From Rhodospirillales bacterium (GTDB lineage: Bacteria; Pseudomonadota; Alphaproteobacteria; Rhodospirillales; Defluviicoccaceae), in the NCBI GenBank assembly GCA_016793875.1, contig JAEULG010000226.1, positions 1 through 32,207 on the forward strand: 32,207 bases of DNA, in the 5' to 3' direction. How positions within the stretch are numbered: position 1 is the first letter of the stretch; the number at the start of each line of letters is the position of its first letter. Below the pieces are notes generated by a model, which saw nothing but the letters and a program-made list of their open reading frames with translations, did not search any database and was not told where the DNA came from. The position numbers and the translations under genes are program-made. Of this stretch, positions 2,515-29,943 are shown piece by piece.

Positions 2515-3624
2515 TCAGCCGACCTCGGGGCGCACCACGTAGTTGCCGTAGCGCGGCTGGCCGTCGTCGTCGGCCCGGTAAAGGCCGCAGCGCACCGCCT
2601 GGATCATTTGCGGGATGACCGAGGGGACGTCGAAACGGCAGCGGAAGCCGAGGCGCTCGCGGATCTTGGAGAACGAGACCCGATAGTTGCGGCGGTCGCC
2701 GCCGGCACCGACGTAGCGCACATCGCCGTCGATATGGCGCAGCACTTCCTCGACGATCTGCTGCTTGGTTAAATTGTTCTGATCGGAGCCGACGTTGAAG
2801 ATCTCGCCGGCGACCGCCTCGCTCGGCGCCTGCAGCACGGCGATGATGGCGCTGGCGATGTCGCGGACGTGGCAGTAGGGCCGCCAGGTGTCCTTGTCGT
2901 ACACCTCCAGCTTCTTCCCGGCGGCCAGCGCGCGGGCAAACTCGTTGACGGTGAGATCGAAGCGCATCCGCGGCGACAGGCCGAAGACGGTTGAAAGGCG
3001 CAGGATGACCGGCTCGACATCGGTCGCTTCCCGCCGCTCCAGCAAAAGCTTCTCGAAGGCCACCTTTGTTTCGGCGTAGATCGACAGCGGCGTCAGCGGG
3101 GCGCTCTCGGTGGCCGGCTCCTCGCCCTCCCACAGGCCGTAGTTGCTGCAGGTGGAGGTGAAGACGAATCGCCGCAGGCCGCGGCCGGCAACCGCGTCGA
3201 ACAGCGCCCGGCTGCCCTGCAGATTGACGCTGCGGGCGAGGTCGGGGTACTTGCGGCTGATGGGATCGCCGACCACCGAGGCCAGCAGTACCACGTCGGT
3301 GACGTCGCCGAGCGCCTGGTCGAGGATGCCGCGATCACGCAGGTCGCCGACCAGCAGCGAGGTGCGTGGGCGGGACACCAGGCCTTCGGCGACGTGGAAA
3401 TGGTCGTAGAGGAAGTTGTCGAGGACGCGCACCCGGTAACCCTGGGCGAGCAGGGCATCGGTGAGGACGCAGCCGACGTATCCGGCGCCGCCGATGACCA
3501 GCACGTGCCGGTCCGGCTCCGGCCGAAGGGCGCCGTCAACCGGGGCTTCCGCCTCGAGAGCGGGCACGAAAGGCAGCTCGGCGTCGGTGGTGGCAAATGC
3601 AAGCGCTTGGGATGTCACTCTCAT
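2515..3624 (-). CDS. NAD-dependent nucleotide-sugar epimerase/dehydratase (extended SDR)
   Basis: A 369-residue extended short-chain dehydrogenase/reductase. The dinucleotide-binding loop GGAGYVG is at residues 45-51, preceded by a 40-residue extension not typical of the core fold. DNFLYD (69-74) follows strand 2, and the active-site pair is visible as STCSNYG (157-163) and YAETK (183-187), with Tyr183 and Lys187 as catalytic residues. Later WRPYCHVRDIA and FNVGSDQNNLTKQQI are typical of the sugar-binding half. The family acts on NDP-hexoses (C4 epimerisation, 4,6-dehydration or reduction); the exact reaction is unclear. ATG at 3624 follows GAGGAG. It is the last gene of the polysaccharide cluster, 278 nt from the beta-helix gene, so it may have its own promoter. 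Confidence 0.9.
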   Translation of the reverse strand: MRVTSQALAFATTDAELPFVPALEAEAPVDGALRPEPDRHVLVIGGAGYVGCVLTDALLAQGYRVRVLDNFLYDHFHVAEGLVSRPRTSLLVGDLRDRGILDQALGDVTDVVLLASVVGDPISRKYPDLARSVNLQGSRALFDAVAGRGLRRFVFTSTCSNYGLWEGEEPATESAPLTPLSIYAETKVAFEKLLLERREATDVEPVILRLSTVFGLSPRMRFDLTVNEFARALAAGKKLEVYDKDTWRPYCHVRDIASAIIAVLQAPSEAVAGEIFNVGSDQNNLTKQQIVEEVLRHIDGDVRYVGAGGDRRNYRVSFSKIRERLGFRCRFDVPSVIPQMIQAVRCGLYRADDDGQPRYGNYVVRPEVG

Positions 3625-3851
3625 TACTCCTCGTCAGTCACGTATGCTGGCGCACGGCGGCAACCGGCGTGGCGGCCTTGCCGCCGGCGCTGTGCTTCCT
3701 TGCTGCGGAGATCGCGGTGCCGCGCCGGTGCACGAGGGGTGCCGGGCATGGGTGTACCCGAGCCCCCCTTCCGGCCGGCGTCGCCGCCCTCCTTCATCCC
3801 TTGAGCGCTGCTGTCGCGTTTTATCAGTTTCGTTCCCGCCGCTGTGCGGCT

Positions 3852-3870
3852 GCCGCCCGTCGCGGGCGGC
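3852..3870 (-). terminator. Hairpin after the beta-helix gene
   Basis: Perfect 8-bp inverted repeat (GCCGCCCG, loop TCG, CGGGCGGC) 33 nt past the stop of the beta-helix gene, in the 278-nt gap before the epimerase gene. There is no T-run on either side, so it may be an attenuator or an mRNA 3'-end structure rather than a full terminator. Nothing else was identified in this gap. Confidence 0.4.
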
Positions 3871-3902
3871 TTCATTGGGCGGCGATGGTTCGCAACAGGG
3901 GC

Positions 3903-5057
3903 TCAGCACGGATTGTTTTCTTCCAGAACGATCCGTGCCCCCCGCTTCATCCCCGAATAGTCGTTGCCGGAGGTGTCGTACAAGAGGTTGTATTTCTTGT
4001 TGAAGGTGGCGATCGCGGCGCGCTGCTGGTCGACGAAGGCGGTGCGCCGGATGGTGGCATTGCGGGTGCCGTCGTCGAGGTAGGCGCCGACACAGCGGGT
4101 CTGGATGAGGCTGTCCTGGATGAGGATGCCATCGCAGCCCGGCCGCGAGTTCCAGGCGGGGTCGGCCCACTCGCATTCGACGCCGATGGTAACGTCCGGG
4201 CCGATGCGGAACCGCTCGAAGACGCTGTCGGTGGTGAAGTGCTCCAGGTAGAGGCCGACGCTGGTGCGTTGCGGACTGCCGATACCGTCGATGTCCACGT
4301 CGCTGAGGCGGAGATTCTTCGCCGCGGTGCCGGTCCAGACGCCCATCCAGGCGCAGTTGCGCACGCGGAAGCGGCGGCCGGTCGCAGTGTTGCCGACCCA
4401 GATGCATGCCTCGGCGGTGCCGTCGGACGATCCGGGAGCCGGCCGGCTGACATTGGCGACATCCAGATCCTCCAGCACCGCCGGCTCCACCACGGCGACG
4501 TCGAACTCGTTGGCGTCGACCTGAACGCCCCAGCTCAGGAAGTTGCGGGCCAGCACCCGCTGGATCTTCAGCCCTTCCGGCTGGCGGGCGATGATCCCGG
4601 CATCGAGGACGCGGTGGCCGTCGATGGTGAGATCGGCCAGCACCGTGCCGCGTCCGCTGCCCCACACCTCGACGGCGGCGCCGCTGGATGCGGTGGCTGC
4701 CTGCTGCAGGTCGAAGGCGATGCCCTGCACCCGGCCGCCGATGGCACAGTCGTCGGATCCCATCGACAGTCCAGCGGCGAGGACGGCGCGGCCGGAGTGC
4801 TCGGCGTAGAGGCGGTGGCCGCAGACCACGGTAAACGGCCCCTCGGAGCGATAGACGCCGTCCCGCAGCACGACATCGAGGGGCGTTGCCGACGCCAGCG
4901 CCTGGCGCAGCTCGGCGCTGGTGCGGACGAAGACCGGCCGCGCCGGCAACGGGTAGGCGCCCGGTGGTACCGGCGCCGCCGGAGCGGCGATCGCAACCGC
5001 CGTGCTCCCGCCGACCAGCAGCAGCGCTGCGATGACCGGCCGAACCATGAAATTCAT
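3903..5057 (-). CDS. Exported right-handed beta-helix protein of the polysaccharide cluster
   Basis: A 384-residue protein. The frame is open further upstream, but ATG at 5057 is chosen because AGGAAGGGAAAG precedes it and it begins a clear signal peptide (MNFMVRPVIAALLLVGGSTAVAIA, cleavage near AAPAAP). The mature part has the spaced short-strand pattern of a parallel beta-helix (pectin-lyase-like fold): GVYRSEGPFTV, GIAFDLQQA, VLADLTIDG, NLRLSDVDIDG, GILIQDSLIQ, NATIRRTAFVD. Cysteines are scattered (for example VVCGH, DDCAIGG, RNCAW, RPGCDG), which suits a disulphide-bonded periplasmic protein. This fold is used by polysaccharide lyases, C5-epimerases (as in AlgG) and some hydrolases, so polymer trimming or epimerisation is likely from context. 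No catalytic set can be assigned. Confidence 0.75.
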   Translation of the reverse strand: MNFMVRPVIAALLLVGGSTAVAIAAPAAPVPPGAYPLPARPVFVRTSAELRQALASATPLDVVLRDGVYRSEGPFTVVCGHRLYAEHSGRAVLAAGLSMGSDDCAIGGRVQGIAFDLQQAATASSGAAVEVWGSGRGTVLADLTIDGHRVLDAGIIARQPEGLKIQRVLARNFLSWGVQVDANEFDVAVVEPAVLEDLDVANVSRPAPGSSDGTAEACIWVGNTATGRRFRVRNCAWMGVWTGTAAKNLRLSDVDIDGIGSPQRTSVGLYLEHFTTDSVFERFRIGPDVTIGVECEWADPAWNSRPGCDGILIQDSLIQTRCVGAYLDDGTRNATIRRTAFVDQQRAAIATFNKKYNLLYDTSGNDYSGMKRGARIVLEENNPC

Positions 5058-5211
5058 CTTTCCCTTCCTATCCTTATCTCTGATGTCCCGGGCAGCGGGG
5101 CAGTGAACCCCCCGGCCACACCGCCGCCGGCAGTTGCCGTTGCGGCGGTCCGATCCGGCCCCTCGCCGAACGCTGCCGGTGGCGGCGTCGATGGCGCGAA
5201 GGGGCATGCGG

Positions 5212-6114
5212 CTACGCGCCGTCGTTTGCGGTACAGCCGGTGTGCTGGCCGGCCGGAGTGGTAGCGAGGCGGAGGACGGCCGCTGGCACGGGCTCCGCGT
5301 CCGCCTCGGAGGACGCCTCGAAGGCGTGCAGGTATCGCAGCTTGAGCCAGTCGAACAGCCAGTGCGGCAGTAGCCAGTGGCACGCGGTCTTGGCAAGTCC
5401 CGCCCAGTCCGCTGCGCAGCGCGGGCGCATGTAGGCCAGCTGCAGGCGCAGCAGCGAGGTGAGCATGCGGCGACGGTGGCGGACGGTAACGCTGCCGCTG
5501 TGCTCGATCTTGCGGGTCAGGAACTCCGGCAGGTTTGCCGCCTTGAAGCGCGACAGCAGGCGAACGAAAAGATCGCGGTCCTCGACGCAGGGGTAGGCGT
5601 CGCGGTAGTTGCCGACGGCGAGAACGGCATCGAGGCGCATCATCACCGCGGGGTGGCAGAGCTGGTCACGGAACAGGATGAGCTTGCGGATCTGCGCGTC
5701 GTCGAGCGAATAGCGGTAGTGGGATTCCCGGCCGTTCTCGAGCAGGTGATAGGCCGACCCGACGATGGCGACGTCGGGATGCTCGTCGAGGAACGCGCGC
5801 TGCAGCCGGAAGCGGTCGGGGAGCGCGAAGTCGCCGGCGTCGAGCCGCGCGACATAGGCGAAGCCCTGCGCAGCAAGGATCGCGCAGCCCCGGCGCAGCG
5901 CGCCGTGGACCTTCCGGTTCACCTTGTTGCGGACGATTTCAAGGGTATGAACGGGATCGCACGGGGGCGGCTGCATCGGCGGCGTGCTGCCGTCGTCCAC
6001 GATCAGGATGTGCAGCGGCTCTTCGGCGGGAAGCTGGCGGACGGTCGCGTTCAGCTCCTCCTGGCAGTTGTAGGCCGGGATAAGCAGGGCGACTTTGGGC
6101 GGGACGATACTCAT
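5212..6114 (-). CDS. Family 2 glycosyltransferase
   Basis: A 300-residue GT-A-fold glycosyltransferase. The N-terminus VALLIPAYNCQEELNATVRQL and LHILIVDDGSTPP form the nucleotide-binding half of GT2 enzymes; YVARLDAGDFALPDRF holds the DxD-like element, here DAGD, in place of the common DADD; and CVEDRDLFVRLLSRF is the expected ED motif of the catalytic base. A C-terminal stretch (WLLPHWLFDWLKLRYLHAF) is amphipathic and may touch the membrane. ATG at 6114 is preferred over an in-frame TTG at 6141 because GGAAG lies about 13 bases upstream and homologues usually begin just before VALLIPAYN. It is the only elongating glycosyltransferase in the cluster, so it should add a sugar to the lipid-linked acceptor made by the priming transferase. 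Donor and acceptor are unknown. Confidence 0.88.
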   Translation of the reverse strand: MSIVPPKVALLIPAYNCQEELNATVRQLPAEEPLHILIVDDGSTPPMQPPPCDPVHTLEIVRNKVNRKVHGALRRGCAILAAQGFAYVARLDAGDFALPDRFRLQRAFLDEHPDVAIVGSAYHLLENGRESHYRYSLDDAQIRKLILFRDQLCHPAVMMRLDAVLAVGNYRDAYPCVEDRDLFVRLLSRFKAANLPEFLTRKIEHSGSVTVRHRRRMLTSLLRLQLAYMRPRCAADWAGLAKTACHWLLPHWLFDWLKLRYLHAFEASSEADAEPVPAAVLRLATTPAGQHTGCTANDGA

Positions 6115-6198
6115 TGGAGGAACTTCCGACAGAGGCGACAACGGGCGCTTCCGGCACTTTTCTTGTCCGGGGCCGGTCCGGGGAAACTCAGGTACCGG

Positions 6199-7557
6199 TC
6201 ATGGCCGGCTGTGCCATTGCGCTGCCTGCCGCTGCTCCTTGGCGAAGTGCAGCAGCAGAACGGTGATGCCGACGATGCCGACGGTGTGACCGACGGCGAC
6301 CGCGGCGGCGGCACCGGCGAGGCCCCAGGCCGGTACGGCGGCGTAGGCGACGCCGAGGGTGACGACGACGATCGCCGCGTAGGGCCAAATCAGCGGGCCA
6401 AACCGGCCGGTGGCGGTCACGATGTGGCAGAGCGCGTACGAGACGTAGGCGATGATCATCGAGGCCATGACGAAGCGGAACGCCGGCTCTGCTTCCATGA
6501 AGGCGGGGCCGTAGAGCGTTCCCAGGATCCACGAGCCGCCGAACAGCGCGGTGCCCAGCCCGGCGAGGGCGATGGCGACGGCGATGGCGACGTAATGCAG
6601 GCTCAGGCGGGCGAAGTTGCTGCGGTCGCCGGCCGACCACAGATCGGCGAGGCGGGGGAACAGCGATTGCCCGACGGCCTGAACCGCCAGCAGGCCGATC
6701 GCGGCGATATTGTCCATGGCGGCGTAGAGGCCGAGGCCTACCGGCCCGAGCGTCGCCTCGATGGCATAGCGCGGGGCGTTGAAGTTGATGTTGATCAGCA
6801 CGACGCTGATGCCGAGGGGGGCGGCGCGGATCAGCAGCCGGCGGCAGGCAACGAGGCTGCGGCGCAGCGTCGCCGGGCGCTGCTGCCACCGCGTCTTGGA
6901 GCGGGCGACGGCGTGATCGTAGGTGCCGAGGACGATCGCCGAGGCAATGGCCATGCCGCCGGCGAGCGCCAGCGTGTCGTGGGTCATGGCAAAGCCGATG
7001 CCGCCCAGCAGCAGCAGCAGCACGCCGCGCAGGCCGAGCGAGACGCCGGCGAGATCGAGGCGCCCAGAGCGCTGCAACAGCGCATGGTAGATATCGCCGA
7101 CGCTGTCCTGCGCCTTGGCGGCGGCGACGAGACCGATCACCAGCAGCGTTGCGCCGCGATAGCCGAGAGCAAAGCCGACGGCGATGATCGCCGCCACGGC
7201 CACCAGCGACAAGGCGAGGCGAAGGCGGCGAAAGTCGTCGAAGCGGGTCGTGCCGCGCGGATCGGTGTTGAGCACCTGACGCAGGCCAAGCTGGGTGGCG
7301 ACGACGATGGGCGCGGCCAGCGCCAGCGCGAAGGTGAAGATGCCGACCGGCTCTGGGCCGCCGAGGCGGGCCAGAGCCAGCACCAGCAGCCAGATGCATC
7401 CGGTAGCGGTGATTTGGCCGATAAAGAAGATGAAGGCATCGCGCCGGATCGCGGGCCCGCTATGGGCCGGTGACAACGGCTCGGCGCCCTCCACTGCGGC
7501 GGTCCGGGCGGCGCCGGCGATGCTGGCAATCGGGATGGCCTTCAGCGTCCCCGTCAC
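6199..7557 (-). CDS. Polysaccharide flippase-like membrane protein (Wzx/MATE-type fold)
   Basis: A 452-residue, very hydrophobic protein with about 12 predicted membrane segments (for example AFIFFIGQITATGCIWLLVL, LALSLVAVAAIIAVGFALGY, GLYAAMDNIAAIGLLAVQAV, IIAYVSYALCHIVTATGRF). Layout and position match oligosaccharide flippases of the polysaccharide transporter family, which move undecaprenyl-diphosphate-linked repeat units across the inner membrane. GTG at 7557 is chosen: it overlaps the stop of the sugar transferase (GTGA), has GGGGAGAG upstream, and implies translational coupling. A GTG at 7605 in the same frame would add 16 residues but lies well inside the upstream gene. The stop is 84 nt before the glycosyltransferase start. 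Confidence 0.85.
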   Translation of the reverse strand: MTGTLKAIPIASIAGAARTAAVEGAEPLSPAHSGPAIRRDAFIFFIGQITATGCIWLLVLALARLGGPEPVGIFTFALALAAPIVVATQLGLRQVLNTDPRGTTRFDDFRRLRLALSLVAVAAIIAVGFALGYRGATLLVIGLVAAAKAQDSVGDIYHALLQRSGRLDLAGVSLGLRGVLLLLLGGIGFAMTHDTLALAGGMAIASAIVLGTYDHAVARSKTRWQQRPATLRRSLVACRRLLIRAAPLGISVVLININFNAPRYAIEATLGPVGLGLYAAMDNIAAIGLLAVQAVGQSLFPRLADLWSAGDRSNFARLSLHYVAIAVAIALAGLGTALFGGSWILGTLYGPAFMEAEPAFRFVMASMIIAYVSYALCHIVTATGRFGPLIWPYAAIVVVTLGVAYAAVPAWGLAGAAAAVAVGHTVGIVGITVLLLHFAKEQRQAAQWHSRP

Positions 7558-8282
7558 GACGGCACTCTCCCCACCTTGGCGCGGGGGCCGTGCCGGCTGA
7601 TCCACTCCTCCGCTGCCTCCAGCACGTTCTCGCTGCGGAAGCCGCTAAACACCGGAACGAAGACGGCGAGGACGCCGCGGAGCAGCCAGGCGGCATCGGT
7701 GAAGACGTTGGCCCGCGGGTAATAGGCGAGATCTAGCCGCGCCTTCGCCGGGAACAGTGTCTGCCGGTAGAACTCCTCGGGATCGCCGCTGGCCGGAAAC
7801 AGGGCGCTTTCGTTCCGAAACAGCACTTGTGCCGGTCCGAACAGTCCGGGGCGGTGCTGCAGTACCGCCCCGTGGCGGTCGCGGAAGCAGTCGGTGAAGC
7901 GTGGCGATTCCGGCCGCGGCCCGACCAGCGACATATCGCCGACCAGCACGTTCCAGAATTGCGGCAGCTCGTCGAGCTTGCTCTCCTGCAGCACCTTGCC
8001 GACGCGGGTCAGCCGGGCATCGCCGTGGACGGTGACCGCCGGCCCCTGGCCCTGGGGGCCGTCCGGAAACTTGCGGAACTTGTACAGACGGAACGGCCGC
8101 CCGTAGCGGCCGAGCCGCTGCTGCGAGAACAGCACCGGGCCCGGTGTCTCCGCCTTGACGGCGATGGCGACCAGCAGCATCACCGGAAGCAGGATCACCA
8201 GGGCCAATGCCGCGACGATGATGTCGGCGCTGCGCTTCAGCGTCGCGTTGGCCGACGCCGTGACCGACGTCTCAGGCTGCAT
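7554..8282 (-). CDS. Priming sugar-phosphate transferase (bacterial sugar transferase family)
   Basis: A 242-residue monotopic phosphoglycosyl transferase. After a short N-terminus comes the hydrophobic re-entrant helix (KRSADIIVAALALVILLPVMLLVAIAVK), then family hallmarks PGPVLFSQQRLGRYGRPFRLYKFR, RLTRVGKVLQESKLDELPQFWNVLVGDMSLVGPRP and a C-terminal RPGLFGPAQ block. The usual catalytic Asp-Glu pair appears as SKLDELPQ. These enzymes transfer a sugar 1-phosphate from UDP-sugar to undecaprenyl phosphate at the inner membrane, the first committed step of polymer assembly. The protein lacks the long N-terminal membrane domain of WbaP and is closer in size to ExoY or PglC-like forms. ATG at 8282 with GGAG upstream overlaps the aminotransferase stop by 11 nt; its own stop overlaps the flippase start. 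Confidence 0.92.
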   Translation of the reverse strand: MQPETSVTASANATLKRSADIIVAALALVILLPVMLLVAIAVKAETPGPVLFSQQRLGRYGRPFRLYKFRKFPDGPQGQGPAVTVHGDARLTRVGKVLQESKLDELPQFWNVLVGDMSLVGPRPESPRFTDCFRDRHGAVLQHRPGLFGPAQVLFRNESALFPASGDPEEFYRQTLFPAKARLDLAYYPRANVFTDAAWLLRGVLAVFVPVFSGFRSENVLEAAEEWISRHGPRAKVGRVPS

Positions 8283-9423
8283 GGCTCGCTCCGATACCGG
8301 CAAGGGCATTCCCGGTCGCCAGCGCGGCGGCCAGCTTATCGATGACGACATCAACGTTGGCATCGCCGAGAGCGGGGTAGAGCGGCAAGGTCAGCTCGCG
8401 GCTGGCAAAAGCCTCGGAGCGCGGCAGCCGCAGGGTTGGATACATCTTGCGGTAGTAGGAAAACTGGTGCGCGCACGGGTAGTGGATGGTGGTTTGTACC
8501 CCTGCGGTGCGCATCGCCTGCATCACCTGGGGCCGGTCGCAGCCGTCCGGCAGTACAACCGGCATCACGTGGTACGCCGAGGTGTCGGCGGCGGCGAACG
8601 GCTGCAGGACCTGCGGGCAGGCGCGGGGCAGGCGCTCGCGATAGCGGGCGGTCAGCCGGCCGCGCGCCGCGTTCCAGCCGGGCAGGCGCTCCAGCTGGAC
8701 GAGACCGACGGCGGCGCGCAGTTCATCCATGCGGTAGTTGAAGCCGAGTTCGGGAACGTCGTAGCTGAAGGCGTGACCCTTGCTGCGCTCCCAGGAAGTC
8801 GTCGTCATGCCGTGGCTGCGCATCCGGCGGATGTGCTCGCGCACCTCGGCGGCAGCGGCGAAGACCATGCCGCCTTCCGCGGTGGTCATGTTCTTGTTGC
8901 CGAAGAAGCTGAAGACGGCGGCATCGCTGTGGCTGCCGATGCCGGGGACGCCGGCGGCGTGCGCGGCATCCTCGATCAGCAGCAGGCCCCGCGACCGGGC
9001 AAAGTCCTGCCACGCGGCAACGTCGACCAGGTAGCCGGCGTAGTGCATGACGATCACCGCCCTGGTCCGCGGCGTGCACTGGCGGGCAGCGTCGTCGAGG
9101 CAGATGTGCGGCCTGTCGAGGGCCTCGATGTCCACGAACACTGGCGTCGCGCCGACGTAGAGGATGCTGTTCACCGTCGCGACGAAGGTCAGCGAGGGGA
9201 CCAGCACCTCGTCGCCGGGACCGATGCCCAGCGCGCGCAGCGCCAGGTGCAATCCGGCGGTGCAGGAGGCGACGGCGACGGCGTCCTCGGCGCCGTGGCG
9301 GGCGGCGAATTCCTGTTCGAACCGGCGTACCCGCTCGCCCTGGGTGATCCAGCCGCTGGCGATGACCTCGGAGAGCGCCGCAGCCTCATCGGCTCCCACG
9401 GCGGCTTCGGCAACCAACAACAT
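8272..9423 (-). CDS. PLP-dependent sugar aminotransferase (DegT/DnrJ/EryC1/StrS family)
   Basis: A 383-residue aminotransferase of the nucleotide-sugar type. GSGW-like SGWITQGERVRRFEQEFA opens the fold, SCTAGLHLALRALGIGPGDEVLVPSLTFVAT is the phosphate-binding region, EDAAHAAG carries the Asp (152) that pairs with the pyridine nitrogen, and FSFFGNKNMTTAEGG contains the Schiff-base Lys177. NYRMDELRAAVGLVQLERL is the family dimer contact. The reaction is transfer of an amino group, usually from glutamate, to a keto-sugar nucleotide, so the polymer probably contains an amino sugar. ATG at 9423 is chosen over longer in-frame starts because GGAGG sits 7-8 bases upstream. It overlaps the priming transferase gene. 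Confidence 0.93.
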   Translation of the reverse strand: MLLVAEAAVGADEAAALSEVIASGWITQGERVRRFEQEFAARHGAEDAVAVASCTAGLHLALRALGIGPGDEVLVPSLTFVATVNSILYVGATPVFVDIEALDRPHICLDDAARQCTPRTRAVIVMHYAGYLVDVAAWQDFARSRGLLLIEDAAHAAGVPGIGSHSDAAVFSFFGNKNMTTAEGGMVFAAAAEVREHIRRMRSHGMTTTSWERSKGHAFSYDVPELGFNYRMDELRAAVGLVQLERLPGWNAARGRLTARYRERLPRACPQVLQPFAAADTSAYHVMPVVLPDGCDRPQVMQAMRTAGVQTTIHYPCAHQFSYYRKMYPTLRLPRSEAFASRELTLPLYPALGDANVDVVIDKLAAALATGNALAGIGASHAA

Positions 9424-9481
9424 CTTTCCTCCTTTGCGGCCGGGAACCCCTGGCCGCGACAAGAGCGGTTCGGGCAAGGCA

Positions 9482-9500
9482 GGGGCGGGGAAACCGCCCC
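9482..9500 (-). terminator. Hairpin between nucleotidyltransferase and aminotransferase genes
   Basis: Perfect 7-bp inverted repeat (GGGGCGG, loop GGAAA, CCGCCCC) directly after the nucleotidyltransferase stop. No T-run follows on the minus strand. It could lower readthrough or protect the upstream message, setting different expression of the two halves of the operon. Confidence 0.35.
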
Positions 9501-9506
9501 CGGACG

Positions 9507-10223
9507 TCAGGCGGCGTTGCGCTTCTGCGCGGGCCAGTAATCGTCCAGTGAGATTTCCTGCGCTTCCTGGAAATCCTCGACCCTGCCAATGTCCAGCCAC
9601 AGGCCGTCATGCAGGTAGCAGTGGACGTCGATGCCCTTTCCCAGCAGGCAGAAAATCAAGTCATCGAAGCCGAAGGCGACGCCGCGCGGGATGTATTGAA
9701 TGATCTCCGGCCGCATGCAGTAGATGCCCATGCTGACCGTGTGGTAGAGCGACGGCTTCTCGCGGAAGCCGGCGACGCGGCCGTTCTGTTCTTCGATGAT
9801 GCCGAAGTCGATACGGATCTTGCGGCGGGCAGTGGCGATCGACAGCAGGCCGCCGTGCTGGCGGTGGAAGGCGCTGAACGCATTGAGGTCGAGGTCGGTG
9901 AGGACGTCGCCGTTGAGCATCAGGAACGGCCCGTCCAGTTCGTCGCGCAGCAGGGTGAGTGCGCCGACGGTGCCGAGCGGGATCGTCTCCCGGGTGTAGC
10001 TGAGCCGCATGTCCCACTGCGAGCCGTCGCCGCAGACCGCGCCGATCAGATGGCCGAGGTAGCCGGTGGTGATGTAGGCATCGATGGTGCCGTTGCGGCG
10101 GAGCCACTTCAGCAGCAGCTCGATGACCGGTTGGTTGCCGATCGGCATCAGCGGCTTGGGCAGAACCATGGTGTAGGGCTTCAGCCGCGTCCCGAGACCC
10201 CCCGCCTGTATGACTGCTTTCAT
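9507..10223 (-). CDS. Sugar-1-phosphate nucleotidyltransferase
   Basis: A 238-residue NTP-transferase of the RmlA/GCD1-like fold. MKAVIQAGGLGTRLKPYT holds the GGxGTR nucleotide loop and LPKPLMPIGNQPVIE the KP motif with the catalytic lysine. FLMLNGDVLTDLD has the metal-binding Asp, and FREKPS and GLWLDIGRVEDFQEA are the C-terminal sugar and metal contacts. It makes an NDP-sugar from a sugar 1-phosphate and an NTP; base and sugar cannot be told from sequence. It has no acyltransferase or isomerase domain. ATG at 10223 is chosen because AGGAGA lies about 8 bases upstream; ATG at 10229 would be too close to it. It lies 54 nt after the autokinase gene and probably supplies the activated sugar for the aminotransferase branch. 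Confidence 0.92.
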   Translation of the reverse strand: MKAVIQAGGLGTRLKPYTMVLPKPLMPIGNQPVIELLLKWLRRNGTIDAYITTGYLGHLIGAVCGDGSQWDMRLSYTRETIPLGTVGALTLLRDELDGPFLMLNGDVLTDLDLNAFSAFHRQHGGLLSIATARRKIRIDFGIIEEQNGRVAGFREKPSLYHTVSMGIYCMRPEIIQYIPRGVAFGFDDLIFCLLGKGIDVHCYLHDGLWLDIGRVEDFQEAQEISLDDYWPAQKRNAA

Positions 10224-10277
10224 ATGCATTCTCCTGAAAGTTGTTTGCTGCACCCGCGCAGCGAGCGGCCGGCCGCC

Positions 10278-12578
10278 TCATGCATGGCGGTAGTAGTTCC
10301 CCATCTTCGCCGAGTAGCGGGCCGAGTCGCCGAAGCCGTAACGGGCGTGGCTCTTGAGATGGACGCGGGTCAGCACCAACCCTTCGAACCGCCGGGTGGC
10401 GGTGGCGAGCTGCATCGCCGCGTACTTGACGACCTCGCGCCGGGTGGCGCCCCAGCGCACGACCATCACCGTCGCTGCGGCCGCGTTGGCCAGGAACAGC
10501 GCGTCGGTCAGCGCCATCAGCGGTGGCGTGTCGATGATGATGATCTCGTACTTGGCTTCGAGGGAGCGCAGCAGCTCGGCGAAGTTCGGCGTGGTCAACA
10601 AGTCGCTGGCGTTGAGCTGCCGCTGTCCGCTGACGATGACGTCGGCCGAGGTTCGCGGATCGCGCTGGATCACCTGGTCGAGCGTGACCGTCTGCGACAG
10701 CAGCTCGGCGAGGCCGGGCCGGACATGGACCTTCAGCGTCTCGGCGATGCGCGAGCGGTGGAGGTCGCCATCGATCAGCAGCACCCGCCGGCCGGTGTTG
10801 GCCAGCATGCGGACGAGCGAGACGCAGGTGGTCGTCTTGCCCTCGCCGGCCTCGGCCGAGGTGAAGACGATGCTGCGCGGCAGCTCGCCGAACGAGGCGA
10901 TCTGCAGCTTGTTGAAGATCGAGCGGATGGCATCGGCGTGCACCGAGGCCGGGGAGTCGAGAACTTCCGCTGCCAGCCGGACCTGCTGGCGGGCGCCGTC
11001 GTTGCCGCGCGACGTCGGGACGTGGGCCAGCACCGGCAGGCCGAGCTCCTGCTCCAGCTGGTGGGCGCTGCGGTAGCCGGCATCCATCGCCTCGGCGGCC
11101 ATGGCGATCGGCAGGCTGGCGATCAAGCCGGCGAGCAGGGCGAGGGTGATGATGAGCGGGGTATTGGGGAAGGAGGGCTCGTCGGGAACGGCCGGACGGG
11201 AGATGATGCGCGCATAGGTCGCCGCCGAGCGGGCATCCTGCTTGGCGCTCGACTCCATGAACGCCGACATGAACTTTTCCAGCAACATCCGGTTGGCTTC
11301 CGCTTCCCGCTCGAGACCGCGCAGGGCGATCGAGGCGGTGTTGGCGGCGGCGTTCTGCTGCTTGAGGCCATTCAGGTCCTTGGTGAAGGCGGCCTCGCGG
11401 ATGCGCGCGGCTTCCGCCTTGCTCTCCAGGCTGCGGAGGACCTTCTTGACCTCGGCATCCAGCGCGTCCTTCAGCCGCAGCTTCTCGGCGGCGAGCTGGA
11501 TCATCGCCGGGTGGCGCGGACCGTATTTTTCGCTCATCTCCGCTTCGCGCCGCTCCAGGCCGAGGAGGTCGCCGCGGAAGCGCTTGATCATGTCCGACTG
11601 CAGGATCTGGTCGAGCGCCTCGATATCATTGTTACGGCCGATGATGCGCCGCGCCTGCGCGGCTTCCGCCTCGGCGGCGACCCGCGCCGCCGAGGCGTCG
11701 ATCAGCTTGAGGTTGAGGTCGGCGACCTGCGCGGACACCAGCGAGGTCTTGTCGCTCTGATAGAGGTCGTGCTGGCGGCGGTAGTTCTCGACGTTCCGCT
11801 CCGCTTGCGTGACCTTGTCGCGCAGCTGCTGGACGTTGGAGGCCATCCACTCGCTGGCGCGGCGGGCGTTGGCGAGCCGGTCCTCGTAGCGGGAGACGAG
11901 ATAGACCTCGCCTACCGTGTCGACGACCCGCGCCGCCAGTACTGGGTCGGTGGCGGTGAACGAGACGTCGAAGACCTTCGAGCGACCGACCATCTTGACG
12001 GTCAGCTGCCGCGAAAAGCGCCGGATGACGGCGTTGCGCTCCTTGACGGCGGCTGCTTCCGGGCTTGGCGGCGTCGAGGCTGCCAACCAGCGCGCCAGCC
12101 ACGGGTTTTCCGCGACGACCGCATCGGGCACCTGCCGGCGCACCCACGACAGCAGGTCGTCGGGAGCCCACCAGGCGGCTGGCGAAAGCCCAGGGTTGAA
12201 CTCCGGTACTTCGTCGAGGGAGAGCTTGTCGATCACCTTCTCGGCCAGCTCGCGCGACTTGAGGATCTCGATCTCGTTGAGAACGCTGTCCATCGCGGCG
12301 AATTCGTCCGGCAGTTGCCGCGCCGGACTGGCGTCGAGCTCGGCGGGGGGCTGGCTGCGCACATCGAAGGCAAGCTTGAGCACTGCCGTATATTGCGGCG
12401 TCAGCATCTGGGTGATCACCGCCGCCAGTGCGACGGTGCCGAAGATCACGGCGAGGATCAGCCCCTTGCGGCGCGCCAGCACCTTCAGCAGGTAACCGCG
12501 CTCGATGCCGGCCGGCTGCGCCGACGAGGGTTCGCGACTGGCCGTGGCGGGGACGCGGATATTCAGATGATCGTCCAT
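10278..12578 (-). CDS. Polysaccharide co-polymerase with tyrosine autokinase domain (GumC/Wzc type)
   Basis: A 766-residue inner-membrane protein with an N-terminal chain-length determinant (Wzz) domain after the first membrane helix (about 39-60: KGLILAVIFGTVALAAVITQM). A long periplasmic coiled coil follows (about 220-450, for example RRASEWMASNVQQLRDKVTQAERNVENYR), then a GNVR-like segment, a second helix (about 468-490, PLIITLALLAGLIASLPIAMA) and a cytoplasmic BY-kinase. The kinase shows Walker A (SAEAGEGKTTT, near 580), Walker A' (VLLIDGDLHRS, near 600) and Walker B (IIIIDTPP, near 682). The C-terminus has a short tyrosine tail (YGFGDSARY then NYYRHA, four Tyr), the usual autophosphorylation site. 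ATG at 12578 begins the family-like start; its ribosome site is weak. No partner phosphatase or Wza-type exporter is in the window. Confidence 0.93.
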   Translation of the reverse strand: MDDHLNIRVPATASREPSSAQPAGIERGYLLKVLARRKGLILAVIFGTVALAAVITQMLTPQYTAVLKLAFDVRSQPPAELDASPARQLPDEFAAMDSVLNEIEILKSRELAEKVIDKLSLDEVPEFNPGLSPAAWWAPDDLLSWVRRQVPDAVVAENPWLARWLAASTPPSPEAAAVKERNAVIRRFSRQLTVKMVGRSKVFDVSFTATDPVLAARVVDTVGEVYLVSRYEDRLANARRASEWMASNVQQLRDKVTQAERNVENYRRQHDLYQSDKTSLVSAQVADLNLKLIDASAARVAAEAEAAQARRIIGRNNDIEALDQILQSDMIKRFRGDLLGLERREAEMSEKYGPRHPAMIQLAAEKLRLKDALDAEVKKVLRSLESKAEAARIREAAFTKDLNGLKQQNAAANTASIALRGLEREAEANRMLLEKFMSAFMESSAKQDARSAATYARIISRPAVPDEPSFPNTPLIITLALLAGLIASLPIAMAAEAMDAGYRSAHQLEQELGLPVLAHVPTSRGNDGARQQVRLAAEVLDSPASVHADAIRSIFNKLQIASFGELPRSIVFTSAEAGEGKTTTCVSLVRMLANTGRRVLLIDGDLHRSRIAETLKVHVRPGLAELLSQTVTLDQVIQRDPRTSADVIVSGQRQLNASDLLTTPNFAELLRSLEAKYEIIIIDTPPLMALTDALFLANAAAATVMVVRWGATRREVVKYAAMQLATATRRFEGLVLTRVHLKSHARYGFGDSARYSAKMGNYYRHA

Positions 12579-12844
12579 CGAAGTCCCGTAGGTTCCGACG
12601 CGCCGTGCGATCCGGTGCCGGCTGCTCGCTGCCGGTTCACCGAGGCGCTGTGCCGGCGGTGCAGGCCAGCCCCAGCGTCGTCGAGTGGAAGAGATGCAAG
12701 CGGGGCAGCGGGGCTGTCCTGCCGCATGCGACCGGAACGCCGGCAGTCGACTTTCCGGATAGGGGGCGAGGGAAAAGCAGCGGCCACTTGCCACATTGTG
12801 CGCGTAGTCATCCTGTCCGCTGCTTGTAAACAAGCTCGGTCCAC
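12563..12844 (-). CDS. Possible 93-codon leader ORF overlapping the autokinase start
   Basis: GTG at 12844 has a strong ribosome site (GGAGG, 7-nt spacing) and opens a 93-codon frame. It ends 15 nt inside the autokinase gene, in a different frame. The product (starting MDRACLQAADRM) resembles no known family, is rich in Arg and His, and uses codons such as TTA, CAA and TGT that neighbouring genes avoid, which argues against a conserved protein. Its value may lie in translation through to the weakly initiated autokinase start (translational coupling). This is an inference; the frame may be chance. Confidence 0.25.
   Translation of the reverse strand: MDRACLQAADRMTTRTMWQVAAAFPSPPIRKVDCRRSGRMRQDSPAAPLASLPLDDAGAGLHRRHSASVNRQRAAGTGSHGASEPTGLRWTII
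12822..12835. repeat. Short inverted repeat in the autokinase leader, possible operator
   Basis: GCTTGT-AA-ACAAGC on the plus strand: perfect 6-bp arms with a 2-nt centre, about 90 nt downstream of the predicted transcription start and just after the GTG of the small leader frame. The size suits a dimeric regulator site, but no regulator gene is in the window. Confidence 0.3.
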
Positions 12845-12928
12845 TGCAAGTCCTCCGAAAATATTCCCCCGACCGCTCAGGTTTCTAAAGTGTAGTTATC
12901 TTAAGTTAAGGGCATTCAATTAGAAGTT

Positions 12929-12957
12929 ATACTATCAATCAGCGTTTCGCCCGTCAA
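12929..12957 (-). promoter_or_regulatory. Sigma70-like promoter for the polysaccharide operon
   Basis: On the minus strand TTGACG (12957-12952) and TAGTAT (12934-12929) are separated by exactly 17 nt inside an AT-rich stretch. The expected transcription start is near 12922, giving a leader of about 345 nt before the autokinase ATG. This is one of the best promoter matches in the window. Confidence 0.6.
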
Positions 12958-13153
12958 ACATATTATTGACATTATTTGTCCATGCTTCAGGCAGCGAACA
13001 TCCGAACCGGCCATGCCGTCAGCCAGGAAACGCTTTGGCGTCCCGATCGCGGATCACCTCGCTGGTATTTCGGCTGTTCTGCGCCTCTCCAGCCGTTGTC
13101 TCGCCGGCACGCATCGCCGAGGTCGCGTCTTGCCGGCATTTGCCCGCGCCGGC

Positions 13154-14392
13154 TCAGGTCATGCGTGCCGTGGCGAGCTGATGCCAGCGGTCGAAGCGCT
13201 GCTGCTGCAGGCAGACGGCGTAGAGCCCCCAGGCCAGGCCGGCCTGGATCCACAATGACCGCCAGTGCAGGGTGTCGACGAAGACGCCGTTGACGAGCGT
13301 CCCCAGCAGCGATGCGGCGATCACTGCGGCGGTGGCGGAGAACGGCGATTGCACCACGGCGGTGCGGATTGCGACCAGTTGCGTCAAGCCGAGGAACAGC
13401 ATCAGCGACAGAAAGCCGCCGACGCCGTTCTCCATCAGCGAGCGGACGTAGAGACTGTGGGCGGAGATGCCGAGGACGCCGACGCGCGCCTCGAACTGGC
13501 CGGGGCCGCCGCCCAGCGGCTGCTCGATCGCCAGTTCCAGTCCCTCCTGCTGCGCGCCGAAGCGATCGGCGTCGTAATCCTGCAGGCCGGAACGCTCGTC
13601 GAGGAAGGTGTCGAAGCCACTCGCCGCAATCACCGCGACGGTGCCGAAGGCGATAGACGCCGAAGCCGCCAGCACGATCGCCCAGAAGCGGAATGCCGGG
13701 CGGCCACGGAGCAGCAGGCCGCGCAGGACGATGTAAACCGCAAGCGACAGCGCGAGGTTCATCCAGGCGGCACGCGATCCGGCAAAGACGATGCCCAGCA
13801 TCAGCAGCAGGGTGGCCGCTACCAGGATCAGCACGTGCAGCGGCCGCTCCGCCAGGCGCTCCAGTAGCGCCAGCAGATAGAGGATCGCAACCACCAGCGA
13901 GGGCCCGTAGACGTTGGGGTCCTTGAAGAAGGCCTGCACCCGGCTGGCGTCGTACATCACCACATCCAGCGGCAGCACACCGGCGACGACGGCGAGGGTG
14001 ATCGCCGTGGAGATGACCAGGGACAGGCAGTAGCCGCCGAGGACGGCATCGCTCGCCTGCGGCCAGGTGGCAACCATGCAGCAGATGAGAGCCCCGACGA
14101 GCACCAGGAAGAAGGTGGTGCCCATGAACATCACCATTTCCGGCACGTCGGTGGCGAACATCGCGGAGAAGACGTTGAACAGTGCATAGACGCCGAGCAT
14201 CACCACCGCCGGCATCATGTCGGGCGCGGCCGGGAGCCGAAGCCGGTGCAGCAGGAACAGCCCCAGAAGCAGGCACGCCAGATCGAAGGGGGCCGGTTCC
14301 ACCAGAACGACGCTGCTGAGCGCGAACACGGCGCCGATGGACAGGCCGAGGGCGCGCGAGTATCCGCCTTGTTGGACAACGGCAATCATCAT
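13154..14392 (-). CDS. O-antigen ligase/polymerase-like membrane protein (Wzy_C type)
   Basis: A 412-residue protein with about 10-12 membrane segments (for example LGLSIGAVFALSSVVLV, GTTFFLVLVGALICCMVATW, LVISTAITLAVVAGVLPL, LHVLILVAATLLLMLGIVF). FAGSRAAWMNLALSL matches the GSR element of O-antigen ligases and related polymerases. A large loop with GLQDYDADRFGAQQEGLELAIEQPLGGGPGQFEA and ISAHSLYVRSLMENGVGGF carries the conserved H-S-x-Y/x-E region of the periplasmic loop. In a cluster with a flippase and a co-polymerase the likely role is polymerisation of undecaprenyl-diphosphate-linked repeats (Wzy role); ligation to lipid A core is less likely. ATG at 14392 has GGAGGTGAG upstream. It is separated from the autokinase by 575 nt and an apparent promoter, so it heads its own unit. 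Confidence 0.88.
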   Translation of the reverse strand: MMIAVVQQGGYSRALGLSIGAVFALSSVVLVEPAPFDLACLLLGLFLLHRLRLPAAPDMMPAVVMLGVYALFNVFSAMFATDVPEMVMFMGTTFFLVLVGALICCMVATWPQASDAVLGGYCLSLVISTAITLAVVAGVLPLDVVMYDASRVQAFFKDPNVYGPSLVVAILYLLALLERLAERPLHVLILVAATLLLMLGIVFAGSRAAWMNLALSLAVYIVLRGLLLRGRPAFRFWAIVLAASASIAFGTVAVIAASGFDTFLDERSGLQDYDADRFGAQQEGLELAIEQPLGGGPGQFEARVGVLGISAHSLYVRSLMENGVGGFLSLMLFLGLTQLVAIRTAVVQSPFSATAAVIAASLLGTLVNGVFVDTLHWRSLWIQAGLAWGLYAVCLQQQRFDRWHQLATARMT

Positions 14393-15332: not shown

Positions 15333-16298
15333 ATGACATTCCGTCCGCTGTTCATCGCCATCGCGATCCTGCCGCTGGTGCTGGCAGGATGCCAGTCCTC
15401 GCCACCGCCCTACTCCAGCCGCACCGTCAGTGCGCCGATGCCGGGAGAGCGCGGCCGCGTGCGCGTCGCCAACGGAACGATCGTCACCGACGACGGCAAT
15501 ATCCTGCGCGGCGCTTCGATGATGATCCTGGCCAACCCGGGCTATGCCAACGACCCCAACTACTGGCGCTCGGTGCATGCGCTGGGGCTGAACGCCGTCC
15601 GTCTCGACGTCAAGACGGTGCAGATCGGCAAGACGGTCGAGGAGCAGCTGCCCTACCTCGACCGGGCAGTCGATCTTGCGGCCCAGAACCATATGTACAT
15701 CATGTTCAAGACGTCGGTGAAACCGGGCGGCTACGATCTGTCCGCGCTGACGAATTTCTGGCGGGTGGCCGCCCCGCGCTACCGGGACCGCACCCACGTC
15801 ATCTTCGAGATGACCAACGAGCCGGTCAGCGGCCCCAGCCCATGGGGCAGCGCCAACCAGTGGACGGACAAGGTCCTCAGCGACCTGGGAGGGGTCTACC
15901 GCCTGATGCGGGCGGCGGCGCCGGAGACCCACATCGTCCTGTTCTCGACGCCCAACCTCTATCCCGACTGCGAGTCCTGGAAGCGGGTGATTGCCCGGAT
16001 GCCGGGGGTCGACTGGAGCAACGCGTCGGTCGGCTTCCACCACTACGCCGGAACCGAGCAGTTCGGCGAGGCCAACATCCAGTGCCTGCGGCAGAGCTAT
16101 CCGCTGGTGATGACGGAAACCAACTACTGGATCAACGACGGCGCCTCGCGCAGCACGCCGCCGACGACGCTGCGGCTCTACGAGAAGCTCGGCATCAGCT
16201 GGTTCTCCCTCGATGGCAAGGGCAGCTTCAGCCACCTGCAGAACGAGATCCTCCCGGACCTGCGGTCACAGGGTTACAGCTGGAAGGTTCAGCAGTAG
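15333..16298 (+). CDS. Glycoside hydrolase family 5-like lipoprotein
   Basis: A 321-residue protein beginning with a lipoprotein signal peptide (MTFRPLFIAIAILPLVLAGC, lipid-attachment Cys20). The mature region reads as a cellulase-type (beta/alpha)8 barrel: ILRGASMMI, GLNAVRLDV at strand 2, HVIFEMTNEP with probable acid/base Glu163, and PLVMTETNYW with probable nucleophile Glu262; WFSLDG closes the barrel. Family enzymes cleave beta-linked glucans, mannans and related polymers. Attached to the outer or inner membrane next to polysaccharide genes, it probably trims or releases the polymer, as BcsZ does for cellulose (an analogy, not a homology claim). ATG at 15333 follows AAAGGTAGG. It is divergent from the cluster and followed by a strong hairpin. 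Subfamily and substrate are unknown. Confidence 0.87.
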   Translation: MTFRPLFIAIAILPLVLAGCQSSPPPYSSRTVSAPMPGERGRVRVANGTIVTDDGNILRGASMMILANPGYANDPNYWRSVHALGLNAVRLDVKTVQIGKTVEEQLPYLDRAVDLAAQNHMYIMFKTSVKPGGYDLSALTNFWRVAAPRYRDRTHVIFEMTNEPVSGPSPWGSANQWTDKVLSDLGGVYRLMRAAAPETHIVLFSTPNLYPDCESWKRVIARMPGVDWSNASVGFHHYAGTEQFGEANIQCLRQSYPLVMTETNYWINDGASRSTPPTTLRLYEKLGISWFSLDGKGSFSHLQNEILPDLRSQGYSWKVQQ

Positions 16299-28168: not shown

Positions 28169-28621
28169 GTGTTGAAAGTTCTGAGTTCCGCGGCCCGGGC
28201 GGTCGCGATGGCTGTCGCGTTGTTTGGCGGGGTCTTCGGCCTCGCTCCGCGTCCGGCACTGGCGGTCGGTCCCGCGTTCCGCCTGGAGGCGGTCGGGCCG
28301 GCGGTTCCCGTGGGCCGCGAGGCGGCGGTGGTGGTCCGGCTGGTGGATGCGGCCACCGGTGCGCCGGTGGCGAATGCCGTCGTCTTCCGTGCCCGGCTCG
28401 ACATGGCGCCCGAAGGCATGGGTGACATGGCGGCGGTGCTGAAGCCGGCCACATCGCCCGATTCCGCCGTGTATCGTTTTACAACCACCCTTACCATGCC
28501 TGGGCGCTGGCTGCTGACGGTGCAGGCGAAGGTCCCCGGCGTCACCGAGACGGTCCGTGCCGAGACCATCATCACCGCCGTCGAGCCGGCGGCCGGTGCG
28601 GCGCCGCCGCATCAGCACTGA
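28169..28621 (+). CDS. YtkA/FixH-like exported protein with Met motif
   Basis: A 150-residue protein. GTG at 28169 is chosen for its GGGAGAGG ribosome site and because it opens a signal peptide (MLKVLSSAARAVAMAVALFG...PALA, cleavage near residue 32). The mature part is one immunoglobulin-like beta domain of the YtkA/FixH group (VPVGREAAVVVRLVDAATGAPVANAVVFRARLDM, then YRFTTTLTMPGRWLLTVQAKVPG). Met79, Met84 and Met87 (MAPEGMGDM) match the copper-binding turn often seen in periplasmic proteins of this group, and the C-terminus ends PPHQH. It is probably a periplasmic copper-binding accessory of the efflux system. Its stop overlaps the CusC-like start (TGATG). Confidence 0.8.
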   Translation: MLKVLSSAARAVAMAVALFGGVFGLAPRPALAVGPAFRLEAVGPAVPVGREAAVVVRLVDAATGAPVANAVVFRARLDMAPEGMGDMAAVLKPATSPDSAVYRFTTTLTMPGRWLLTVQAKVPGVTETVRAETIITAVEPAAGAAPPHQH

Positions 28622-29943
28622 TGCGCCCGTCGCATGGCCGGGCGCTGGTCCGGCTGCTGCTGCTGGCGGTGGCGCTGGCGCCGCCGGGCGTAGCTTGGGC
28701 GCAGACCGGGGCGCAGGCCGGAGCGAGCGAATCAGTGGGCGGCGAGCCACCGCTCGGCGCCCGCCTCGACGAGCTGCTGGAGATGGGGCGTCGGCTCAAT
28801 CCCGGCGTTGCCGCGGCGGCGCTGGAGGCCGACGCGGCGCATGCCCGCATCGGCGCCGCCGGCCGCTTCCCTGATCCCGTCTTCACCACCGAAATCGAGG
28901 ACATCCGGGCGAGCGGCAGCACCGCCGCGCCGGAGAGCGTCGGCCGGGTGAAGTACACCCTCGCCCAGACCATCCCGCTGTGGGGCAAGCGCGGGCTGGA
29001 ACGGGACGTGGCGCAGGCCGAGGCGGGCGCCGCCGACCAGCAACGGCGCTCCGCCGAGCAGGAGCTGGCGTGGCGGATCAAGACGGTGTTCGCGCAAGGC
29101 TACGCCGCGGCGGCCACCGTGCGCATCACCCGCGAGCTGCTGGCGACACTGGACAGCATCGCCCGGGTGGCGCAGAGCCGCTACGCCCAGGGCCAGGGCA
29201 ACCAGCAGGACGCGATCAGTGCCGAGGCGGAGAAGGGACGCCTGCAGCTCGACCTGGAACGGGCCGAGGCGCAACGCCTCGCCGCGGCGGCGCGGCTGAA
29301 TGCGCTGCTCGATCGGCCGGCGGGGGCGCTGCTGGCGCCGCCGCAGTCGTTGCCGCCGGTGCCGGGCGCCGACGCGATGCCCCTGGAGGCGGTGCTGGCG
29401 CAGGCGGAGGTCGCCAACCCGCAACTGGCGCAGGCGCGGGCGGAGATCACCGCCTTCGAACGCAGCGCCGAACTGGTCCAACGCTCGTGGTACCCGGACG
29501 TCACTCTCGGCGTCACCGTCTACGACGAGGACGGCGATAACGACCGTCAGTTCGGCGGCTACGAGGCGATGGTCTCGCTCGACGTGCCGCTGCAATGGGG
29601 CCTCCGCCGGGCGCGCGAGCGCGATGCGCACGCAAAGCTGGCAGCCTCGCGGGCGCGGCGCGAGGACGCCGCGGCGAGCCTGCGCGGCGACATTGCCGAG
29701 GCGTGGTGGGCGCTGGAGGCGGCCCGCCGCAGCGAGGGGGTGCTGCGCCGGATCAACATCCCGCAGTCGGCGGTAATGCTGCGCTCGGCGCAGGCCGGCT
29801 ACGAGCTCGGCAGCGCCGACCTGCCGGGCGTGCTGCTGGCGGAGCAGGGAGTGCGGCGAACGGAGCTGGATTTCATCGGCGTGCAGGTCGAGCAGCAGAT
29901 GCGGCTGGCCGACCTGGAACGATTGGTCGGCGGAGATCTTTAG
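28621..29943 (+). CDS. TolC-family outer-membrane channel of the metal efflux system (CusC-like)
   Basis: A 440-residue protein with a cleavable signal peptide (RLLLLAVALAPPGVAWA, about 1-27; no lipid-attachment Cys, unlike E. coli CusC). Two TolC/OEP repeats are visible as long helical hairpins: RLDELLEMGRRLNPGVAAAALEADAAHARIGAAGRFPDPVF with FAQGYAAAATVRITRELLATLDSIARVAQSRYAQGQGNQQDAISAEAEKGRLQLDLERAEAQ, and the second half from ANPQLAQARAEITAFERSAELVQRSWYPDVTLGV to QAGYELGSADLPGVLLAEQGVRRTELDFIGVQVEQQMRLADLERLVG. It forms the trimeric exit duct for the RND pump. Its start overlaps the YtkA-like stop and its own stop abuts the CusB-like start, so the genes are translated together. Confidence 0.9.
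   Translation: MRPSHGRALVRLLLLAVALAPPGVAWAQTGAQAGASESVGGEPPLGARLDELLEMGRRLNPGVAAAALEADAAHARIGAAGRFPDPVFTTEIEDIRASGSTAAPESVGRVKYTLAQTIPLWGKRGLERDVAQAEAGAADQQRRSAEQELAWRIKTVFAQGYAAAATVRITRELLATLDSIARVAQSRYAQGQGNQQDAISAEAEKGRLQLDLERAEAQRLAAAARLNALLDRPAGALLAPPQSLPPVPGADAMPLEAVLAQAEVANPQLAQARAEITAFERSAELVQRSWYPDVTLGVTVYDEDGDNDRQFGGYEAMVSLDVPLQWGLRRARERDAHAKLAASRARREDAAASLRGDIAEAWWALEAARRSEGVLRRINIPQSAVMLRSAQAGYELGSADLPGVLLAEQGVRRTELDFIGVQVEQQMRLADLERLVGGDL

Follow-up and report, generated by a model that had tools for sequence, protein, structure and literature searches.

The window, a stretch of 32,207 nucleotides that forms an entire contig (JAEULG010000226.1, here C116) of a Rhodospirillales bacterium of the Defluviicoccaceae, probably a Defluviicoccus, contains a Wzx/Wzy-type exopolysaccharide cluster of ordinary kind, made up of nine genes within positions 2515-14392, all on the minus strand. 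Its products are likely to make up the inner-membrane half of a Wzx/Wzy exopolysaccharide pathway that is split across the genome and has a dedicated beta-helix enzyme acting on the polymer. The secreted beta-helix protein (3903-5057), which was absent from an earlier note on this DNA, is the part most worth following. Defluviicoccus species are activated-sludge bacteria that accumulate glycogen, and in such sludge the properties of flocs and granules are determined by matrix polymers. Our search of the literature on their exopolysaccharide genetics turned up no work devoted to a Defluviicoccus pathway. A locus with few parts is a favourable place for solving a whole repeat unit. Should the beta-helix protein prove to be an enzyme, it would be a candidate tool with specificity for a polymer that is still uncharacterised, and it would indicate that such tailoring enzymes travel with particular Wzy polymerases.

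The locus and its unlinked export unit

The pathway is read as a Wzx/Wzy system because the priming phosphoglycosyltransferase, Wzx, Wzy, Wzc, a GT2 glycosyltransferase and the sugar genes are complete in one tightly spaced minus-strand array (Table 1), in which the aminotransferase and priming transferase genes overlap by 11 bp and those of the priming transferase and Wzx by 4 bp. Catalytic motifs of the pathway components are intact: Wzc has the Walker A sequence GEGKT, with four tyrosines among its final 30 residues, and the priming transferase has the catalytic Asp-Glu in LDELPQ, aligned to the PglC structure 8e37. The genes and coordinates given in the earlier note were correct; the Pfam families scored above their cut-offs, and a codon-usage gene model built for the window led to a gene set identical to the open reading frame (ORF) calls.

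The results of our profile search of the assembly (3.43 Mb in 301 contigs, 99.3% complete, 1.9% contaminated) showed that the genome has one match to the Wza-type family Poly_export (PF02563), unlinked, on contig C147, surrounded by genes for a BBP2_2 outer-membrane barrel (312.7 bits), a small membrane protein and a ligase-like PF04932 protein. Homologues of the ligase-like gene (39-42%) and of the small membrane-protein gene (35-37%) are located beside Wzc, Wzy and Wzx in two sister Defluviicoccus genomes, G070 and G067, which ties the C147 export unit to this class of locus. The gene row of G070 is Wzc, ligase-like, small membrane protein, GT4, Wzy, GT2 and Wzx, the GT2 adjoining Wzy being 51% identical to that of the window, and the row of G067 is the same minus the GT2; transferase counts are thus low in the genus again and vary between species. 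The C147 Poly_export protein (L078:11028-11663) is short (211 amino acids) and begins with the twin-arginine-like sequence MSRREALRS, which is unusual for a Wza lipoprotein.

In the proposed pathway, the nucleotidyltransferase, the extended short-chain dehydrogenase/reductase (SDR) and the aminotransferase would make a nucleoside diphosphate-activated amino sugar, and the small priming transferase would load the first sugar-1-phosphate, plausibly this amino sugar, onto undecaprenyl phosphate (UndP). The GT2 enzyme would attach the second sugar, Wzx would flip the repeat unit and Wzy would polymerise the units under the control of the Wzc kinase. The polymer would then exit via the Wza-type protein and the outer-membrane barrel encoded on C147, while the beta-helix protein may work on it in the periplasm or outside, by analogy with the epimerase AlgG or the lyase RbmB.

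The secreted beta-helix protein

The beta-helix protein has a typical Sec signal at its N-terminus. A phmmer search against PDB sequences returned no chain at E up to 1, RbmB included, and the Pfam Beta_helix family, which matched the homologue of one actinobacterial locus (L154) at 37.9 bits (cut-off 25.9), gave 12.6 bits with the window protein, below the cut-off. AlphaFold2 models built from three sequences reached a pTM of 0.76 and a mean pLDDT of 67.6 for the window protein, and 0.75 and 66.7 for the L154 homologue. Foldseek matched beta-helix carbohydrate enzymes with weak TM-scores, VIA-align gave the top ranks in two lists to AlgE6 (Z 26.1, rmsd 3.0, 276 aligned) and AlgE4 (Z 26.4, rmsd 3.1, 283 aligned), and the RbmB chains 9ozd and 9ozl were among the structural matches. 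This ranking of predicted models supports a right-handed beta-helix fold, but not a chemistry.

Relatives of the protein were found in two of the 19 loci retrieved by a scan of genome contigs with a Wzy alignment, both in actinobacterial metagenome genomes (L154, 39.8% over 357 residues; L162, 37.8% over 368 residues). A profile built from these two sequences and that of the window was matched in two of 385 genomes of the window's class, namely the window genome and the marginal G511, and, of the 17 genomes that had supplied the Wzy loci, in three actinobacterial ones, while the 14 remaining Wzy-locus genomes, the sisters G070 and G067 included, gave no match. Among 349 genomes of the class of G698, six were matched: G697, G698, G699, G845, the distant G910 and the marginal G857. 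The two marginal matches, G511 (1.7e-4), which contains a stop, and G857 (3.6e-4), which spans 69 positions, were not counted as homologues.

Comparison of the surroundings of these genes showed that in G698, G845, G699 and G910 a single stretch holds the beta-helix gene together with those for Wzy, Wzx and a Wzz-kinase. The association was seen in both directions: all three actinobacterial genomes found through Wzy (G697, G698 and G699) have a beta-helix homologue, and both of the further genomes found by the profile at E <1e-10 have Wzy, Wzx and Wzz-kinase around the beta-helix gene. Since G697-G699 were found through Wzy, only G845 and G910 count as independent support. This pairing of a beta-helix family with Wzy was not met in the literature searched.

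When six homologues were aligned, one being incomplete, 42 residues of the window protein proved invariant, including E216, W220, E272, H273, E296, W297 and D328. E272, E296 and D328, spaced 24 and 32 residues apart, occupy like places in VGLYLEHF, IGVECEWAD and VGAYLDDG, and from this we infer that they line up along one face of the helix, in adjacent coils. The protein is probably a polymer-acting enzyme, perhaps an epimerase or a lyase. It could instead have a structural or adhesive role alongside the polymer, or be an unrelated neighbour, as beta-helix folds also occur in adhesins (PfbA) and in NosD and the fold alone shows no function. We regard this alternative as unlikely, because the residues E216, E272, E296, D328, H273, W220 and W297 were kept in all six homologues, one of which is only 28% identical, and the recurrence of the gene next to Wzy in a distant phylum speaks against a chance neighbour.

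Several observations weigh against the combined reading of a split pathway with its own polymer-acting enzyme. The beta-helix models are of medium confidence only; phage proteins, tailspikes, polygalacturonases, AlgG, NosD and RbmB trail AlgE by about 1 to 4 Z, so that AlgE leads the other beta-helices by no more than about 1-2 Z units; and DPHD, which we take to be the catalytic motif of AlgG and AlgE, is absent from the 384-residue protein. In G697 the beta-helix gene and Wzy are on different contigs, and the link between them is one of synteny, the beta-helix gene having the neighbours seen in G698. The genome of the window has three or more Wzc-like proteins and one Poly_export match, and the C147 exporter may serve another polymer. 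Finally, PF04932 is common to polymerases and O-antigen ligases, and a polymerase role for the window protein is suggested by its context. The same breadth of PF04932, which includes O-antigen polymerases as well as ligases, and the ligase-like gene on C147 would also suit a lipopolysaccharide (LPS) O-antigen as the product instead of an exopolysaccharide. We hold this to be very unlikely, as the Wzc of the locus is complete, with its kinase domain and with tyrosines at the C-terminus, which is typical of capsule and exopolysaccharide systems, and is not a plain Wzz.

A phage or plasmid origin of the beta-helix protein was considered and rejected: 55 pattern stretches were found in viral contigs and none was confirmed, and there was no plasmid match. 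The actinobacterial Wzy loci L154, L178 and L180 have a polysaccharide deacetylase and a GNAT protein in common, and an ATP-grasp-like protein adjoins the beta-helix gene in L154 and L178 and is unmatched in L180.

Number of transferases and nature of the sugars

The assembly was surveyed by six-frame searches with the profiles PF00535 (GT2) and PF00534 (GT1/GT4-type), other glycosyltransferase families being covered only as Pfam matches of the locus genes. PF00535 gave 18 matches, one on C116 and the other 17 on other contigs, and PF00534 gave 20, none of them on C116; these are domain hits, and gene numbers are somewhat lower. The claim of the earlier note that the locus has one elongating GT2 therefore holds, as the contig has no second GT2 and no GT1/GT4-type match, and no hidden transferase was recognised inside the locus by ORFs, Pfam or the six-frame searches with the two profiles. 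The unlinked glycosyltransferases and the Wza-type exporter for which that note proposed a genome search are both present on other contigs. Bac_transf, the family of the priming transferase, has four matches in the genome.

The few-transferase puzzle is real but ordinary, and two explanations were weighed. The repeat may have more than two sugars and be finished by glycosyltransferases encoded elsewhere in the genome, which we rate at slightly less than an even chance. The plentiful matches on other contigs fit this, as do the sister genomes, where scattering is seen: the G070 and G067 loci have a GT4 (84% identical mutually) that is without a close counterpart here, its best match in the genome of the window being partial (36%, E 4e-15), and the priming transferase of the window gave no tblastn match in the fetched G070 and G067 stretches. 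The uppABCDEF cluster of Agrobacterium has been described as an incomplete Wzy-type cluster, in which Wzx and Wzy were not identified (PMC4018554). However, no unlinked transferase was tied to the locus, which also encodes a priming transferase, a flippase, a polymerase and sugar-supply enzymes of its own; the specific transferases of such dedicated loci are usually clustered.

The repeat may equally be a disaccharide of the priming sugar and one sugar added by the GT2 enzyme, and we rate this as likely as completion by unlinked transferases. The GT2 is the only elongating transferase recognised in the locus, which is consistent with this reading, and the Wzx/Wzy polymer of Shigella sonnei has a two-sugar repeat including an amino sugar (PMC4368438). 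Against it stand the number of unlinked transferases in the genome and the fact that the literature searched turned up no structural data on any Defluviicoccus polymer. With the S. sonnei polymer and the split upp pathway as precedents, few transferases are in themselves no novelty.

An amino sugar in the repeat, as proposed in the earlier note, is reasonable in view of the 11-bp overlap between the aminotransferase and priming transferase genes. The aminotransferase most resembles enzymes of the ArnB and PseC types (best PDB match ArnB 1mdo, E 1.2e-72), and its relatives adjoin the priming transferase in three (L146, L147 and L148) of five other alphaproteobacterial stretches fetched by a priming-transferase match. 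This adjacency supports, without proving, an amino sugar as the first sugar. On the other hand, the locus has no 4,6-dehydratase. The SDR has the motifs GGAGYVG, YAETK and STCSNYG, and in the last of these the position of the dehydratase Glu is a Ser, so that the 4,6-dehydratase acid is missing; the SDR also gave the only match to PF02719 in the locus, a weak match at 25.5 bits that does not make it a dehydratase of the FlaA1/PglF type expected in an S. sonnei-type FucNAc4N locus. Unlinked dehydratases are encoded by a FlaA1-type gene on C158 (PF02719, 361.8 bits) and in an RmlA-RmlC-RmlB row at the end of C230, the Rml names being judged from sequences without a profile run. The nucleotidyltransferase gave no identity for the sugar, as uridylyl-, guanylyl- and MurU-type enzymes all match.

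Among PDB structures the SDR matches 6vo6 best (E 2.7e-46, residues 39-342), an entry that we take to be Cj1427. The activity of Cj1427 is that of a GDP-heptose C4-dehydrogenase (PMC10680097). The SDR might thus be a C4-oxidase of this kind, whose 4-keto product would be used by the aminotransferase to give a 4-amino-4-deoxy sugar keeping its C6 hydroxyl. Both this structure match and the replacement of the dehydratase Glu by Ser are in line with the proposal; we consider it quite unlikely all the same, since the 4,6-dehydratases of C158 and C230 could supply the aminotransferase and four genes stand between it and the SDR.

A second polysaccharide-type cluster is present in the genome (C288:25000-60000, L079/L080), with Wzc-like, GT2, SDR, nucleotidyltransferase, flippase-like and GT4 genes; its SDR has the motif SSCSNYG and is 38% identical to that of the window. 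C183:1-9000 (L186) has a PglC-PglD-PglE-like row and, after it, genes for proteins resembling acyl carriers, AMP ligases and asparagine synthases, these being named from sequence only; the stretch is probably a separate bacillosamine-type glycan system.

Known systems, origin of Wzy and flanking genes

Comparison with known systems showed that every single trait of the locus has a precedent, while no example of these traits combined with this beta-helix family turned up in the literature searched. The view of the earlier note that this is not a described polymer system stands for the gene order, which was identical in no characterised locus among those examined, and fails for the kind of system, which is already known. 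The wbg locus of S. sonnei and Plesiomonas O17 is like that of the window in its Wzx/Wzy type, and its polymer has a two-sugar repeat with an amino sugar; its product is LPS-linked or a group 4 capsule, and the available text on it mentions no beta-helix gene. In the related FucNAc4N set of Haemophilus parainfluenzae an aminotransferase also adjoins the UndP-FucNAc4N transferase (PMC3989065), but the set contains a UDP-GlcNAc dehydratase, which is missing from the window locus. The unipolar polysaccharide cluster uppABCDEF shares the split Wzy-type pathway proposed here and an alphaproteobacterial host, with other transferases. A compact locus on pSymB of Sinorhizobium meliloti has a remote Wzy relative (26.6%) with Wzc-type, Wza-type, priming transferase and two GT4 genes, without an aminotransferase or beta-helix protein in the stretch examined.

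The promonan (prm) locus of Sphingomonas sp. LM7 is a Wzx/Wzy exopolysaccharide locus with genes for an outer-membrane porin and a secreted glycosidase; it differs from the window locus in having five transferases and a hydrolase that is a GH16 enzyme (PMC11340318). RbmB is encoded in a biofilm gene cluster and cuts the polysaccharide VPS (PMC11637428). This lyase and the AlgG and AlgE epimerases have the right-handed beta-helix fold predicted for the window protein, which lacks DPHD and has no sequence match to any solved structure at E up to 1.

The Wzy protein of the window has matches in three of 317 genomes of its order, its own included, and distant relatives in Actinobacteria and Bacillota. 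Its identity over local matches was 37-38% with L152 and L154 and 35% with L162, all actinobacterial, as against 33-34% with the sisters, and the highest actinobacterial identity over tree columns was 33%. This slightly higher actinobacterial identity is no proof of transfer, and neither is the Wzy tree of 21 rows, in which the window lies on a long branch without a supported place: constraining it with Actinobacteria (p-AU 0.216) or with the sister Defluviicoccus (p-AU 0.307) was not rejected. It is conceivable, though improbable, that the beta-helix protein founds a new secreted exopolysaccharide-modifying family, coupled to one Wzy branch and exchanged with it as a pair between soil Actinobacteria and Defluviicoccus, which would epimerise or trim a short-repeat amino-sugar polymer during its exit.

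Table 1. Features of the exopolysaccharide locus, with positions in the window.
Feature	Position	Strand	Evidence
Wzy-type polymerase, 412 aa, ~11 hydrophobic segments	13154..14392	-	PF04932 (Wzy_C) 35.7 bits, cut-off 31.7
Promoter-like site TTGACG-17-TAGTAT, AT-rich gap upstream of Wzc	12929..12957	-	consensus match only
Wzc, polysaccharide co-polymerase fused to BY-kinase domain, 766 aa	10278..12578	-	Wzz + GNVR + AAA_31; TIGR01007 above cut-off
Sugar-1-phosphate nucleotidylyltransferase, 238 aa	9507..10223	-	NTP_transferase
DegT/ArnB/PseC-type sugar-4-aminotransferase, 383 aa	8272..9423	-	DegT_DnrJ_EryC1; PLP (pyridoxal phosphate)-lysine motif FFGNKN
Monotopic priming phosphoglycosyltransferase, PglC-type small form, 242 aa	7554..8282	-	Bac_transf PF02397, 172.7 bits
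Wzx flippase, 452 aa, ~11 hydrophobic segments	6199..7557	-	Polysacc_synt PF01943, E 2.9e-8, 33.9 bits, cut-off 28.2
Single elongating GT2 glycosyltransferase, EpsE-like	5212..6114	-	Glycos_transf_2
Secreted right-handed beta-helix protein (predicted fold), 384 aa, signal peptide	3903..5057	-	no Pfam/NCBIfam match at E 0.001
Extended SDR, nucleotide-sugar 4-oxidase/epimerase-like	2515..3618	-	Epimerase family; no 4,6-dehydratase signature

Wzy and Wzc are separated by 575 bp with an AT-rich stretch, and the promoter-like site was observed once, vs 0.3 expected in shuffles. An AsmA gene (259-2247) adjoins the SDR end of the locus, and the contig stops beyond it. On the other side, divergent from wzy across 940 bp, lies a plus-strand gene (15333-16298), also absent from the earlier note, for a GH5-type (PF00150) protein with the lipoprotein-like signal LVLAGC, which may belong to polymer turnover; C49 carries a 54% identical copy close to a GT4 and a further priming transferase. 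Positions 28208-32207 (plus strand) carry, as judged from ORFs only, efflux-type genes (outer-membrane factor and membrane-fusion-like) followed by an ORF that is open at the end of the contig.

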